From positions 3,666,001 through 3,730,000 of the forward strand of contig BPGD01000001.1 of NCBI GenBank assembly GCA_026002855.1: DNA of 64,000 nucleotides. Reading direction: 5' to 3'. How positions within the stretch are numbered: position 1 is the first letter of the stretch; every line of letters begins with the position of its first letter. This document shows positions 58,996-63,921 of the stretch, piece after piece. This stretch comes from Bryobacteraceae bacterium (GTDB lineage: Bacteria > Acidobacteriota > Terriglobia > Bryobacterales > Bryobacteraceae). The notes beneath the pieces were generated by a model. The model was not told where the DNA came from and made no database searches. It saw only the letters and a program-made list of their open reading frames with translations. Position numbers and translations under genes: made by a program.

Positions 58996-59280
58996 ATGCC
59001 TGACCGGAGCCTGTATCTGGCCGCTTACGACATCTGCGACCCTGGCCGCCTGCGCAAGGCGCTGCACGTGATGAAGCAGTACGCCACCGGCGGACAGAAA
59101 TCCGTCTTCGAATGCTTCCTCACTGAGGCGGAAAAGCAGCGCCTGATTGGCGAAATGCGCGAAGTGATCGAGCCTCGCGAGGACCGCTTTTTTCTCATTC
59201 CCATCGAAATGCGCAGCCCGGTGAGGACGCTCGGCATCGCCGTGCCGCCCGAAGATCTGCCCTTTTATTACGCGGGGTGA
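58996..59280 (+). CDS. cas2: CRISPR-associated protein Cas2
   Basis: A 94-residue Cas2 with the ferredoxin-fold nuclease pattern: YLAAYDICDPGRLRKALHVM (catalytic-position aspartate D12), the arginine-rich helix, and the beta strand GQKSVFECFLTEAE. The C-terminal strand RFFLIPIE is normal. Cas2 forms the central dimer of the Cas1-Cas2 spacer-integration complex. It is the first gene of the locus and six bases ahead of cas1. Cas2 with Cas1 is standard; what is unusual is a second Cas2 two genes downstream. Confidence 0.92.
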   Translation: MPDRSLYLAAYDICDPGRLRKALHVMKQYATGGQKSVFECFLTEAEKQRLIGEMREVIEPREDRFFLIPIEMRSPVRTLGIAVPPEDLPFYYAG

Positions 59281-59286
59281 ACCACG

Positions 59287-60270
59287 ATGGCGACCTTGTA
59301 CATCGACCGCAGCGGGGCCGAGCTCGAGCTCGATCATGGCGCCCTCGCCGTGCGCGCCGGCGGGGAGCTCCAGCAGCGCGTGCCGCTGCTTCATCTGGAG
59401 CGCTGCGTTATCACCGCCGGCGTTCAGCTCTCCACCGGGCTGCTGGCCGGACTCTCTGATGCCGGAGTCGGCGTGGTGATTGTCCGTCCACGGCAGGACC
59501 GCGCTGCCGTGCTGACGGGCTTGCCCAGGGGCGACGCAGGCCGGCGGCTCGGGCAGGCAGCGATGGCGTTGCACGGGCCCGCCCGAGACCGCTGGGCGCG
59601 CTTCTGGGTGCATGCAAAGTGCCTGGCCATGATCCGGCTGTTGCGGGCCGAAGCGGTCTCGGGCGCGGGCCGTGCCAGGCTTGCCCAGGCGGCGGAACGA
59701 ATCGAATCCCTCGCCGTGCGCCTCCGGCGGGACCGGCCGGCCGCCGACGCGGCGCGCGGCATCGAGGGCGCCGCATCGGCCGCATACTTTGAGGCCTTGC
59801 GGGAACTGTTTGCACCGGAGCTTGGATTTGAAGGCAGGAACCGGCGCCCGCCGCGCGACCCTGTGAACGCCTGTCTGTCGCTTCTCTACACGCTGCTCTA
59901 CGGCGCGGCCGTGGAGGCCGCGACGGGGGCAGGGCTCGACCCGTCCATCGGGTTCCTCCACGAGCCCGCGCCGGGCCGCGCCGGCCTTGCCTGCGACCTG
60001 GTGGAGCCGTTCCGCGCTCCGGCTGATCGCATTGTCGTCGAGCTGTTCCGCTCGCGCTCATTGCGCAAGGAGCATTTCCAGAAAACGAATGGCGCGTGCC
60101 TGCTCGGCAAGGCAGGGCGGCGCGCCTTCTACGAGTCCATTGAAGAACCGCTGGAAAGGCTGCGGCGGAGGATGCGCGCAATGGCCCGGCGCGTGGCGCG
60201 CGCCGCCGACCGCGCCTACCTGCGGGTGTCAGAGGCAGGAGGCATGACGCCATGCGGCCCCTCTATGTAG
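59287..60270 (+). CDS. cas1: CRISPR-associated endonuclease Cas1 (catalytic)
   Basis: A 327-residue integrase. The N-terminal beta domain (residues 1-78) is followed by the alpha-helical catalytic domain. The metal-binding residues are seen in RGIEGAASAAYFEAL (E160), IGFLHEP (H225) and CDLVEPFR (D237/E240), so it should be active. The order cas2-cas1 is the reverse of most loci. The 3' end overlaps the following Cas1-like gene by 19 bases. High GC matches the flanking genome and gives no sign of recent import. Confidence 0.95.
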   Translation: MATLYIDRSGAELELDHGALAVRAGGELQQRVPLLHLERCVITAGVQLSTGLLAGLSDAGVGVVIVRPRQDRAAVLTGLPRGDAGRRLGQAAMALHGPARDRWARFWVHAKCLAMIRLLRAEAVSGAGRARLAQAAERIESLAVRLRRDRPAADAARGIEGAASAAYFEALRELFAPELGFEGRNRRPPRDPVNACLSLLYTLLYGAAVEAATGAGLDPSIGFLHEPAPGRAGLACDLVEPFRAPADRIVVELFRSRSLRKEHFQKTNGACLLGKAGRRAFYESIEEPLERLRRRMRAMARRVARAADRAYLRVSEAGGMTPCGPSM

Positions 60271-61001
60271 CAGGAGCGCCCGGCGTTCGGCTCCGGCTGG
60301 ATGGCCCGTCGCTCGTTGTGGAGGCCCCGGCGCGCGCCGTGCGCCGATATCCGCTGGAACGGCTCTCGCAGGTAGTCCTCTGCGGACTGGTGGAAGCGGA
60401 ACTGGACGCGCTGCGCGCCTGCGCCATGCGCGGCATTCCCGTGGGCGCGATGAACGCGGACGGCGTTCCGGTGGGATTCTTTCTGCCATGGCGCGCGCCA
60501 GCGCCTCGGGCCAGCGTCCTGCTGGAGGCGTTTCTCGAACGGGGCGACGCGCCCGGCCGCTACCGGGACTGGCAGCGCTCGCAGCAGCGGCGGGCCATAA
60601 TCCGCGCCCTGCGCGCCGCGGGCCTCTCACCCATGCGCCACCTGACCCCGCAGCCGGCCATGGAGGCGCTGATGGCACAGTTCGCCGGCCCCGCGGCCGC
60701 GGCGCAAGTCCTGAAAAGCTGGCTGGGGCTTGCGGCCAACGTCGTCCAGAAAAAGCTGACCGAATTTCGGCTCTGCCCGACACTTGTGGCCGGGCGCAGG
60801 CGCGGCATTGACCTGCCGGCGGACCTCGCGGAACTGGCCGCCTGGGGACACTACGAAGCCGTGCGGCGGCTGGAGCCACTGCCAGCCAACCGGGCCGAGG
60901 AGGTGGCCGCTTACGAGGCGCAGCGGCCGCGGGATGAACGCTTCGTTCATGCCGTGCTGGAAAACTTCCTGTGCTGGCTGGGCGGAATGCGATGGCAGTA
61001 A
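60252..61001 (+). CDS. Cas1-like protein without recognisable catalytic residues
   Basis: A 249-residue protein. Residues 2-80 parallel the Cas1 N-terminal beta domain (LYVAGAPGVRLRLDG...YPLERLSQVVLCG...GIPVGAMNADGVPVGFF against LYIDRSGAELELDHG...VPLLHLERCVITAG...GVGVVIVRPRQDRAAVL). The next helix RYRDWQRSQQRRAIIRAL corresponds to Cas1 DRWARFWVHAKCLAMIRLL. After that the catalytic segments are missing: no G-x-E-x-x, no H in a FLH context, no D-L-x-E. Instead there is a helical region of about 120 residues with KSWLGLAANVVQKKLTEFRLCP. AGGAGG at 60237-60242 precedes the ATG. It overlaps cas1 by 19 and cas2-like by 10 bases, so it must be co-translated. Confidence 0.72.
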   Translation: MRPLYVAGAPGVRLRLDGPSLVVEAPARAVRRYPLERLSQVVLCGLVEAELDALRACAMRGIPVGAMNADGVPVGFFLPWRAPAPRASVLLEAFLERGDAPGRYRDWQRSQQRRAIIRALRAAGLSPMRHLTPQPAMEALMAQFAGPAAAAQVLKSWLGLAANVVQKKLTEFRLCPTLVAGRRRGIDLPADLAELAAWGHYEAVRRLEPLPANRAEEVAAYEAQRPRDERFVHAVLENFLCWLGGMRWQ

Positions 61002-61309
61002 GCGGACTCCGTTGCTGGATCATCGCCTACGACATCACCGAGCCGCGCCGGCTCCGGCAGGTGCATGCCTATCTGGTGAAGCACGCTCATGCGCTGCAAT
61101 ATTCCGTGTTTCTCGCCGTCTGCACGGAACGCCAGCTCGAACGGATCCTCGCCGGCCTGGCCGGCCAGATCCACCATCGTTCCGACGACGTCCGCGCCTA
61201 TCCGCTGCCTGAAGGCGCCGAGCCCGTCTGTCTGGGCGTCATGTATGAGAGCGATTTTCTCCTGCTGACCGGGCTCGTGGAAGGCGCCAGAGGGTTTTTC
61301 GGGTACTGA
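60992..61309 (+). CDS. cas2: Second Cas2 paralogue
   Basis: A 105-residue Cas2-family protein: CWIIAYDITEPRRLRQVHAYLVKHAHALQYSVFLAVCTERQLERI (aspartate of the YD motif kept) and HHRSDDVRAYPLPEGAEPVCLG. It is clearly diverged from the first Cas2 of the locus (no continuous identity beyond short motifs), with a longer C-terminus ending in LVEGARGFFGY. The ATG at 60992 overlaps the Cas1-like stop by ten bases. A 40-base A/T-rich gap then separates it from the CARF gene. Possible partner of the Cas1-like protein. Confidence 0.85.
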   Translation: MAVSGLRCWIIAYDITEPRRLRQVHAYLVKHAHALQYSVFLAVCTERQLERILAGLAGQIHHRSDDVRAYPLPEGAEPVCLGVMYESDFLLLTGLVEGARGFFGY

Positions 61310-61364
61310 GGAAAAATCATCAAGAAAATTTCACCCGCAGATTTGATATATGAACAGAGGGAAA

Positions 61365-62552
61365 ATGAACGCCGGAAAAGGGATTGAAGCGGCAACGCCG
61401 GCCCGGAAACAGCGCGTGCTTCTGGTGGTCACCGGACTATCGCCACAGGTGGTCACCGAGACGGTCTACGCGCTCGCCGTGCAGCGCAGCCCGAAATGGG
61501 TCCCGCACGAGATCCGCCTGGTGACCACTGCTGAAGGTGCGGAACGCGCGCGGCTGACGCTGCTGGACCCGAAGTCCGGCTGGTTTCACCGCCTGCGCCG
61601 CGAATACCGCCTGCCGGCGATCCGGTTTGGCCCCGAATCCATCCGCGTCGTCCAGGACACGAAAGGCAGGCCGCTTGGCGATATCCGCACCGCCGAGGAC
61701 AACGCCGCAGCGGCGGATTTTCTGCTCCGGGAGATCCGCGAATTGACCCGCAACCCGCATAACGAGCTGCATGTGTCCATCGCCGGCGGACGAAAAACGA
61801 TGGGCTTTTTCGCCGGCTACGCGCTGTCCCTGTGCGGCCGTCCGCAGGACTCGCTGTCCCATGTGCTGGTGGATCCGCCCTTTGAGTCTCACCCGGCTTT
61901 CTTCTATCCCACCCGCGAGCCACACGTGATCCACACGCCGCCGCCGGAGAGCCGTCCGCTGGATGCCTCCACCGCCCGGGTGACCCTGGCGGAAATCCCC
62001 TTCGTAAGGCTTCGCGAACTGCTCGAGCGCAGCGGCCAGCCTCCGGAAGGCGGCTTTCGCCAAACGGTTGCTGCGGTTCAGCAGGCGCTGTACCCCGAGC
62101 TGTGGCTCGACCGCGGGAAAGGAATCGTGACCGCTGGCGGCGTTGAAGTGCGCATGCGGCCTGCCGAGATGGCTTTTTATGCGATGATCGCCCGCGCCAG
62201 CCGGCAGGGCCAGGGCGTGCATTGCCCCAGCGGCAGCGAGGATCAACCGCTGGCTCAGGCGTACTTGCAGGAATACGAGCAGTGCGCCGGAGGCCGCGAC
62301 ATCGAGCGCACGCGCCGCGCCCTGAGACGCGGCATGGATCGCGAATATTTCCTCGAGCGGGTCTCCCGCGCCAACCGGGCACTGCGCGACGCGTTGGGGG
62401 CGGAGCGCTCCTACGGGTTTGAGATCCAGTCCGTGGGCAGGCGAACGGAAACCGAATACCGGATCAGCGTCGCGCCGGACAGGATCCGCTTTGCCGGGGA
62501 AAATTCCACTCCGCCGGCACAGGCTCACCCTGTGAGCCCGCGGCGGCAGTAG
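61365..62552 (+). CDS. CARF-domain protein, NE0113/Csm6-ring-nuclease-like
   Basis: A protein of 395 residues (400 if the ATG at 61350 is used; ATG 61365 has GAGG just upstream). The CARF Rossmann fold shows VVTGLSPQVVTETVYAL and the ligand-loop HVSIAGGRKTMGFFAGYAL, then FYPTREPHV and AEIPFVRLREL, matching the NE0113 family often annotated as CRISPR ring nuclease or Csm6. It should bind cyclic oligoadenylate made by Cas10 and cleave it or act as a switch. The C-terminal 170 residues are helical without a convincing HEPN R-x4-6-H. The A/T-rich gap before it (61310-61364) may hold its own promoter. Confidence 0.75.
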   Translation: MNAGKGIEAATPARKQRVLLVVTGLSPQVVTETVYALAVQRSPKWVPHEIRLVTTAEGAERARLTLLDPKSGWFHRLRREYRLPAIRFGPESIRVVQDTKGRPLGDIRTAEDNAAAADFLLREIRELTRNPHNELHVSIAGGRKTMGFFAGYALSLCGRPQDSLSHVLVDPPFESHPAFFYPTREPHVIHTPPPESRPLDASTARVTLAEIPFVRLRELLERSGQPPEGGFRQTVAAVQQALYPELWLDRGKGIVTAGGVEVRMRPAEMAFYAMIARASRQGQGVHCPSGSEDQPLAQAYLQEYEQCAGGRDIERTRRALRRGMDREYFLERVSRANRALRDALGAERSYGFEIQSVGRRTETEYRISVAPDRIRFAGENSTPPAQAHPVSPRRQ

Positions 62553-62574: not shown

Positions 62575-63921
62575 ATGAACCAGAATCCGCTCAGCCTTCC
62601 GGGCAACGGCAAGGTGCTCGTGATGACCGTGGGCGAGGGCACCGTTGACAGGCTGGAGGAGACAATCGTCACGCCCTTCCGAAAATCCTTCGAGCAGGGC
62701 GAGTGGCAATGCATCGTGCTGCTGCCTTCCCGGAAGACCGAGCCCAACGCGCGACTGCTGCAAGAGCGTTTCCCGCAATTCCCGCTTCAGGTGCGGGCGC
62801 TACGGCAGGAGACAGAAGAAGACAACACCGATGCCTGCTTCCGTCACTTTGATGCGGTGATCGAACGGATGCTCGAACAAGGCTGGCAACGCGAAAACAT
62901 CACCGCCGACGTCACCCGTGGGACCAAAGCGATGACGGCCGCCCTCGCGATGGCGGCGATGGCTCACCGCGTCGGCCAGATCCGCTACATCACCGGCGAG
63001 CGCGACAACCGTGGCATGGTGAGGCCTGGAACGGAAGTCATCGTGGACGTGCCGCCCCAGAAGGCGCTCGAGCGTCAGGACGTCAACCTGGCGGCGCAAT
63101 ATCTGAGAACCGGCAACTACCGCGCAGTGGAAGCGCTGTTTCCCGGAGCGCCGAGGCGTCTCTACGAGGGGCATTTGAGGGAGGAGATCCGCTGGCTCGC
63201 CTGGGCGGCCCAGTTCTGGGGCGCATGGGACCGTTTCGATTACAAGGAAGCGGCGCGGCTGGCCCAGCGCAACGGCATGCCGGCCAACCCGCCCGCGACC
63301 CTGCGCGACCTGCTGCCTGCGGCCGGGCAGCAGGTCGTCCTGCAAGTCCTTGCGGGACGTTCGGCGCCGGACTCCGACGACAATGTCGGCTACTGCCGTG
63401 CTCTCGCCGCCGACCTGCTGGCCAACGCCGGCCGCCGGCTGCGCGAAGGGCAAAACGAAGAAGTGCTGGTGCGCCTGTATCGCGTGCTCGAGCTGCTGGG
63501 CCAGATGCGGCTGTTCAGCCACGGCATCGACTCGGGCCGTACGGATGCTCGGGATGAAAGAGTCCGGGCATGGCTCGAAACTCTGCCGCCTCAGCGCAGG
63601 CCGGCACCCAACGAGGATGGGTTTCTCGAGCTGTCCCGCCAGAAGGCGGCCGAACTGCTGCATTTCATCGAAGAGAAATCCGGAAATGCCGGCGGGCTCG
63701 AAATCGCCGGGAAGCTCACGAACCTGGACTGGCTGGGCGACTGGGGGCCGACGATGCGCAACACAAGCGTGCTGATCCACGGCTTCCGTGCGCGGAGCCG
63801 GGGCAGGGAAGCAGAGCTCCGGAGTCTTCTCGAAAAACTGACGCAGCTTTATTCGGGCGAATCGGACGGCAACCCGGCGCTGCTGGCGGCTTGTCAATTC
63901 GGATTTCTGCGAGGCTTATGA
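62575..63921 (+). CDS. CARF-HEPN protein, TIGR02710-like
   Basis: A 448-residue protein. The N-terminal CARF domain (residues 12-160) has VLVMTVGEGTVDRLEETI and the ligand motif ITADVTRGTKAMTAALA (D112-T114-R115-G116-T117). The C-terminal region (200-448) is helical and contains R395-N-T-S-V-L-I-H402, an R-N-x5-H (R-x6-H) HEPN ribonuclease pattern followed by GF. The layout fits a TIGR02710-like CRISPR CARF protein, which would degrade RNA when cyclic oligoadenylate binds. It lies 22 bases after the previous CARF gene, with GAAGGAGAG upstream of the ATG, in one transcript. Confidence 0.72.
   Translation: MNQNPLSLPGNGKVLVMTVGEGTVDRLEETIVTPFRKSFEQGEWQCIVLLPSRKTEPNARLLQERFPQFPLQVRALRQETEEDNTDACFRHFDAVIERMLEQGWQRENITADVTRGTKAMTAALAMAAMAHRVGQIRYITGERDNRGMVRPGTEVIVDVPPQKALERQDVNLAAQYLRTGNYRAVEALFPGAPRRLYEGHLREEIRWLAWAAQFWGAWDRFDYKEAARLAQRNGMPANPPATLRDLLPAAGQQVVLQVLAGRSAPDSDDNVGYCRALAADLLANAGRRLREGQNEEVLVRLYRVLELLGQMRLFSHGIDSGRTDARDERVRAWLETLPPQRRPAPNEDGFLELSRQKAAELLHFIEEKSGNAGGLEIAGKLTNLDWLGDWGPTMRNTSVLIHGFRARSRGREAELRSLLEKLTQLYSGESDGNPALLAACQFGFLRGL

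Follow-up and report, generated by a model that had tools for sequence, protein, structure and literature searches.

Within a 64,000-nucleotide stretch of a Bryobacteraceae genome (GenBank assembly GCA_026002855.1, contig BPGD01000001.1, positions 3,666,001 to 3,730,000; hereafter, the window), a clustered regularly interspaced short palindromic repeats (CRISPR) adaptation locus codes for two Cas1 and two Cas2 proteins. The four genes lie on the plus strand in the order cas2a (58996..59280), cas1a (59287..60270), cas1b (60252..61001), and cas2b (60992..61309). The first gene of the module encodes a Cas2 of the GGQKS type with 94 residues (PF09827, E = 7.3e-13), and the second a full-length Cas1 of 327 residues (PF01867, E = 1e-71 over residues 4-287). 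The third encodes a diverged Cas1 of 249 residues whose match to PF01867 is confined to residues 9-79 (E = 5.6e-9), with a score above the family cut-off that identifies it as a Cas1 homolog, and the fourth a Cas2 of the LQYSVF / DDVRxYP type, 105 residues long when read from its ATG (PF09827, E = 1.6e-13). Both Cas2 types retain the YD[IV] motif. Six bases separate cas2a from cas1a, cas1a overlaps cas1b by 19 bases, and cas1b overlaps cas2b by 10 bases if the latter starts at ATG 60992; the longest cas2b frame begins at GTG 60971 and codes for 112 residues, in which case the overlap with cas1b is 31 bases. The initial annotation had described a cas2 - cas1 - cas1-like - cas2-like operon at 58996-61309 with overlaps of 19 and 10 bases, and the frames and, with the ATG start of cas2b, both overlaps were confirmed, all four frames lying on the plus strand with Pfam assignments to Cas2, Cas1, Cas1, and Cas2. 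The canonical integrase is composed of four Cas1 and two Cas2 subunits. Cas1a, a full-length Cas1 with catalytic residues, and both Cas2 proteins, as members of the Cas2 family, resemble the components of this machine; however, the canonical homomeric integrase is the product of one cas1 and one cas2 gene, whereas the module in the window encodes two paralogs of each together.

The four genes make up an expanded and conserved module for spacer acquisition that belongs to type III CRISPR loci. Searches with a Cas1b profile recovered homologs of the 249-residue protein, with its gene neighborhood kept, from one order and two other classes of the phylum: true Cas1b proteins are present in 22 of 437 genomes, namely 13 of the 257 from the order, 6 of the 142 from the class that includes G111, and 3 of the 38 from the class that includes G122, and the weaker matches in the three genome sets are other Cas1 proteins. 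A Cas1a profile run against the same 437 genomes singled out identical sets of 13, 6, and 3 genomes, each scoring at least 346.8 bits, with all other Cas1 proteins scoring at most 208.7 bits. A 23rd genome (G566) carries cas2a together with a cas1a cut off by the end of the contig (202 bits), and has no Cas1b match. In all 19 loci where the four genes lie in one stretch, their order is cas2a-cas1a-cas1b-cas2b, and it is this recurrence of an identical order in related genomes that marks the arrangement as more than chance. The loci that are not whole include one split between contigs (G344) and one in which no cas2a is seen near the end of the contig (G619). Overlaps are also conserved, that of cas1b with cas2b in 21 of 22 loci and that of cas1a with cas1b in 17 of 20. 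The possibility raised at the outset that the second pair is a decayed copy unique to one genome does not hold, given its presence in 22 genomes, the grouping of each gene in one clade, and a ratio of non-synonymous to synonymous substitution rates (dN/dS) below 1 within the genus.

Phylogenetic analyses support a single origin for each of the four families. The module Cas1a proteins (n = 21) group in a single clade apart from 23 other Cas1 proteins of the phylum (support 100/99), the latter drawn from 30 loci (103 of 396 genomes matched) together with a Cas4-Cas1 fusion of the window's own genome. Omitted from this tree were L132 and L135, which carry the same genes as L107 and L108, loci L121-L130, which repeat other rows, and the partial Cas1a of G344; in L101, the position at which cas1a begins is uncertain. 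The 22 Cas1b proteins form one clade in a tree of the N-terminal domain that included 14 of the 23 other Cas1 proteins (100/95), although the columns are few and the placement of the clade among Cas1 proteins is unsure. The Cas2 tree, built with one Cas2 per reference locus and without the second Cas2 of L131, also rests on few columns and resolves Cas2a (21 rows, two from plasmids) and Cas2b (24 rows, two from plasmids) as one clade each (99/95 and 98/80, respectively). In genome G051 (L162:1122-3152), an ordinary Cas1 gene lies between two ordinary cas2 genes whose products fall, by score, outside the Cas2a and Cas2b families. Pairwise comparisons of cas1b among four genomes of the genus yielded dN/dS values of 0.18-0.42 (six pairs; dS of 0.76-1.7, partly saturated), and by this sequence measure cas1b is under purifying selection within the genus.

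The relationship of Cas1b to Cas1 was traced both directly and through a second Cas1b group. In profile-profile comparisons, the window-type Cas1b proteins aligned with the other Cas1b group over 247 columns (E = 3.6e-18), and this second group aligned with Cas1a over 238 columns (E = 2.5e-12); the direct match between window-type Cas1b and Cas1a covers the first 76 columns only (E = 1.4e-10). An AlphaFold2 prediction of the window Cas1b modeled only residues ~1-70 well, and this part matches the Cas1 N-domain, which is the dimerization domain of Cas1. In several structural comparisons, the modeled N-domain matches Cas1 structures at 1.5-1.6 Å over 81-83 columns. The Cas1a model, built with three closer sequences, reached a mean predicted local distance difference test (pLDDT) score of 70.5, a value that serves as an imperfect control, its alignment being less diverged than that of Cas1b.

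The two Cas1 paralogs differ most clearly in their catalytic residues. The window Cas1a carries E160, H225, D237, and E240, which we take to be its catalytic residues, and the corresponding Glu, His, Asp, and second Glu are kept in all 22 Cas1a proteins (that of L109 is partial). The Cas1a stretch 150-229 aligns with residues 131-212 of PDB entry 3nkd, presumably E. coli Cas1, and its kin. An alternative assignment, in which the Glu of a YTLLxxE motif is the catalytic Glu and the window Cas1a is consequently inactive, was ruled out, as both the 65-residue spacing to the His and the alignment with solved Cas1 structures point to E160 within the GxEG motif. The window-type Cas1b proteins have lost both the His and the segment extending from the GxEG motif as far as RRPPRDPVN; the Asp column is kept in 15 of 16, and neither Glu nor His occupies the catalytic columns in any of the 16 (one alignment took 13 of these, excluding L099, L103, and L104). 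The window Cas1b itself aligns only an Asp and the second Glu, and thus lacks the catalytic Glu, His, Asp set. In one of the other classes, all six Cas1b proteins share the Asp and a Glu that is invariant within a motif of the GEG or SER type, equated by eye with the catalytic Glu, and three of the six also keep a His that aligns by profile with that of Cas1a. Three of the 22 Cas1b proteins therefore appear, from their sequences, to retain the full Glu, His, Asp set, and their existence suggests descent of Cas1b from a working Cas1. Cas1b appears to be a complete Cas1 whose catalytic function disappeared in most lineages and whose gene was retained. The initial annotation envisaged a hetero-complex with a division of labor in which the first pair integrates and the second selects, holds, or orients prespacers; the loss of catalytic residues in Cas1b alone supports a division of labor in general, of which such a prespacer role of the second pair would be one possible form.

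The module adjoins a type III-A locus. Downstream of cas2b lie two plus-strand genes of the type III signaling set, one for a CARF protein of the CRISPR-associated ring nuclease Csm6 family (61350..62552; TIGR02584) and one for a Csm6/Csx1-like CARF-HEPN protein (62575..63921; TIGR02710), and past the window end (L007) follow cas6, cas10/csm1, csm2, csm3, csm4, csm5, and a second CARF-HEPN gene. This effector set, all of it after the module, is shared with type III-A CRISPR-Cas systems, whereas the usual single cas1-cas2 pair of those systems is here replaced by the four-gene adaptation module. Effector genes accompany the module elsewhere: blastp searches with the window's own proteins, through which distant effectors are missed, found cas6, cas10, or csm genes in 12 of 24 loci (the window included), a CARF-HEPN gene alone in 5, a weak csm3-like match in 2, and nothing in 5, short contigs being among these last.

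An array is common at type III-A loci, though not required; neither the window nor the 40 kb that start just before the module (L007 and L008) yielded a CRISPR array. Among the 24 fetched loci, of which several contigs end too near the module to tell, 8 have arrays within ~1.1 kb of the module, comprising 4 to 115 repeats with a called repeat of 27-37 bases. In two of the loci (L106:7569-17002 and L107:7967-13349), arrays in the same orientation and with identical or nearly identical repeats flank the module on both sides. When the repeat adjoining the module in the related genome G635 was used as a search pattern, the window's own genome yielded 287 matches to this 36-base repeat (at most 3 mismatches), 284 of which form one array at C1 3396953-3416420. 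This array and the remaining 3 repeats occupy C1:3395241-3416420 (L159, L160), some 309 kb from the module. Two other genomes differ in their content: G636, of the same genus, has neither a module match nor the 36-base repeats, and G633 has the module and lacks the 36-base repeat within 3 mismatches.

The same genome also carries, at L009:2503-9933, a type I-G-like Cas4-Cas1 fusion accompanied by an array of 75 repeats. It, too, is an adaptation module with its own array; however, its Cas1 lies outside the Cas1a clade and is fused to Cas4, its repeat is different, and one Cas2 frame was detected next to it. Three other Cas1-like matches (E = 2.4e-12, 2.4e-12, and 1.3e-5, at C1:227666-228124, C1:4320491-4320949, and C1:466644-466946; L010-L012) are decayed fragments that sit in three copies of a dispersed repeat of ~1.2-1.5 kb, two of the copies being 98.8% and 92% identical to the first. 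As candidates for further Cas1 genes in this genome, the four matches thus resolved into these three fragments and the Cas4-Cas1 fusion.

Outside the phylum, the range of the module is known from plasmids only. A Cas2a search of 72,556 plasmids at a threshold of 1e-6 returned two records, from Sphaerotilus sulfidivorans and Aeromonas media, each with a cas2-cas1-cas2 arrangement annotated as ordinary Cas1 and Cas2. As in the window, the first Cas2 of each belongs by profile to the Cas2a family (113 vs 32 bits and 74 vs 26 bits), the second to the Cas2b family (94 vs 29 bits and 74 vs 44 bits), and the Cas1, at 384 and 313 bits, to the Cas1a family (an ordinary Cas4-Cas1 of a Rhodothermus plasmid reaches 222 bits). 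In a tree with 17 of the 23 reference proteins and one plasmid Cas1 (L138, L140, L143, L146, L147, and L149 were excluded as long or partial), the plasmid Cas1 proteins nest within the Cas1a clade at two places, the Aeromonas branch being long. The plasmid modules differ from that in the window in having no cas1b: none was found between or beside the three genes in 16-17 kb, the search covering plasmids only. The simplest reading of these sequences is that cas1b was lost twice with both Cas2 families retained, and the plasmid modules suggest that what stays constant in the module is its pair of Cas2 proteins. The Sphaerotilus module lies beside bacteriophage exclusion (BREX)/pgl genes (L154:1-9400), and no CRISPR effector is annotated in the 16 kb; between the Aeromonas module and its III-B cmr genes is a gene for a toprim-domain protein (L155:9260-10291) that matches nothing in PADLOC at 0.01. 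Cas1b itself was not detected by single-protein queries in viral contigs, phages, or plasmids. Methylacidiphilum strain V4 is reported to have two Cas2 proteins and a truncated cas1 (PMC6688271), possibly the same module in another phylum.

How much of this arrangement was already on record differs among its parts. PADLOC-DB contains a profile, PDLC01185, for a 'Cas1, diverged variant, second in the loci', and its existence means that a diverged second Cas1 had already been noticed; the profile reportedly goes back to the surveys of Shmakov, Makarova, and Koonin. The window Cas1b, likewise a second and diverged Cas1, matches profile positions 1-116 of 246 (1.5e-11), and the Cas1b of genome G706 matches positions 8-245 (2.2e-34). 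The profile matched four Cas1b proteins besides that of the window, the one in L106 weakly (0.0013), and it missed the Cas1b of G224 and G387 in the phylum sample, both of which were found by the Cas1b profile A1. It covers one protein, however, and comprises neither the paired Cas2 families nor the four-gene order, the co-occurrence with the Cas1a clade, or the catalytic split. No description of the four-gene layout or of its Cas2 pair was found in the literature searched, outside of which lie most subscription journals and supplements, and none of the four-gene module in the available parts of a 2025 classification (PMC12669027) and a 2023 survey of rare CRISPR systems (PMC10910872). Of the refutation foreseen in the initial annotation, a published family that already covers this arrangement, only a part holds: the second Cas1 is on record, and the searches showed no account of the four-gene order or of the Cas2 pair.

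In an ordinary Cas1 dimer, one subunit catalyzes strand transfer and the other only shapes the DNA channel. Although Cas1-Cas2 is a symmetric complex, it must act asymmetrically, as spacers have a direction and the first attack falls on the leader side. For type II systems, the repeat is discussed as being contacted by a non-catalytic Cas1 (PMC6895254). We propose that the four proteins of the module form one heteromeric integrase, in which Cas1a and Cas1b would pair as a heterodimer with Cas1a in the catalytic place and Cas1b in the inactive, structural place, and a Cas2a-Cas2b heterodimer would join two such Cas1 heterodimers as an asymmetric bridge. Because its two Cas2 faces differ, the proposed complex would be asymmetric by construction, and it could, with no need for Cas4, tell apart the leader and spacer sides or the two ends of a prespacer. 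Upon loss of Cas1b, Cas1a homodimers could take over, and the Cas2 pair would stay. In favor of one integrase are the fixed gene order, the co-occurrence of Cas1a and Cas1b, the single clade of each family, the correlated distances of the four genes, the catalytic split, the well-modeled N-domain of Cas1b, the low dN/dS of cas1b, the nearby arrays, and the persistence of both Cas2 families in the plasmid modules. We judge it by a narrow measure probable that Cas1a catalyzes, Cas1b fills the inactive Cas1 place, and the Cas2 pair forms the asymmetric bridge; a stricter version, in which the Cas2 heterodimer is obligate and leader polarity or spacer orientation is fixed by the complex alone, with neither Cas4 nor a host factor involved, is a tentative extension that we would sooner doubt than accept.

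Several observations weigh against a heteromeric integrase. Cas1b is not indispensable, since it is missing from the two plasmid modules, and it is the fastest-changing of the four proteins (mean distance of 0.72 vs 0.46-0.58 for the others). Pairwise distances of the four genes do correlate over 19 loci (Pearson r of 0.83-0.94, Spearman of 0.56-0.89), but shared ancestry of the loci would also account for this. No natural fusion among the four genes was seen, and in G562, cas2a-cas1a (L110) and cas1b-cas2b (L100) reside on different contigs, as would also suit two separate complexes. The C-terminal half of Cas1b, where Cas1 has its helical integrase domain, was modeled at pLDDT values mostly under 50. 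By alignment column alone, Glu or His is kept in none of the 22 Cas1b proteins, and the three that seem to carry the full catalytic set owe this to the motif reading. Finally, in each genome only the top candidates were scored (10 in the Cas1b search, 8 in the Cas1a search), and the co-occurrence count could miss weak members.

The principal alternative is that the genes encode two separate complexes, one of Cas1a-Cas2a that integrates and one of Cas1b-Cas2b that is non-catalytic and binds and delivers leader or prespacer DNA (or RNA), or regulates integration. The gene order itself reads as two Cas1-Cas2 pairs, cas1b and cas2b are the most tightly coupled of the genes, and the contigs of G562 separate the module along the same line. 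However, cas1a and cas1b are coupled by overlaps as well, and the plasmid modules keep cas2b without cas1b, which means that Cas2b does not need Cas1b as its sole partner; we regard two complexes as rather unlikely. A second alternative is that Cas1b is a decaying duplicate heading for loss, held in place by linkage only, and that Cas1a and one or both Cas2 proteins make up the working unit. The depleted catalytic residues of most Cas1b proteins, their rapid divergence, and their absence from the Sphaerotilus and Aeromonas modules nested in the Cas1a tree are all as expected of such a relic. Against this, the cas1b frame is open in all 22 genomes (the one TGA in G567 is its own stop codon), its dN/dS values are low, and none of the 437 genomes has a complete module Cas1a without Cas1b, leaving aside G566, whose contig ends inside cas1a. 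A C-terminal WLGG motif is also shared by 11 of the 13 Cas1b proteins from the order, whereas the 9 that belong to the other two classes all lack it. Taken with these points, decay seems improbable.

Two further explanations concern the Cas2 proteins and the assembly of the locus as a whole. Nuclease activity has been reported for Cas2 proteins in other systems, and the YD[IV] motif in both Cas2 types would suit a pair with some other role, such as a Cas2/VapD-like nuclease or toxin unrelated to integration. The pair nevertheless shares one operon with an intact Cas1 in all 19 whole loci and has arrays nearby in 8 of 24, and we consider such a role very improbable. That two ordinary adaptation modules came to lie together by chance has a precedent of sorts in the extra cas2 beside the ordinary Cas1 of G051, but the comparative data refute it, each gene having one origin and the gene order being shared across members of three classes, and leave it virtually no probability.

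The sequence comparisons suggest that, in this module, jobs normally shared by identical subunits are split between different proteins. With Cas1 and Cas2 both split into specialized paralogs, the task of each subunit can be probed directly through mutation of single genes, and nature has supplied a series that amounts to a ready experiment, with modules of four genes, modules of three genes without cas1b, pairs on separate contigs, and Cas1b proteins with or without catalytic residues. The module also offers an orthogonal, possibly self-polarizing recorder. If the heteromeric integrase that we favor is real, then the catalytic and structural roles of Cas1, which in the known complexes are played by identical chains, would here be encoded by separate genes.

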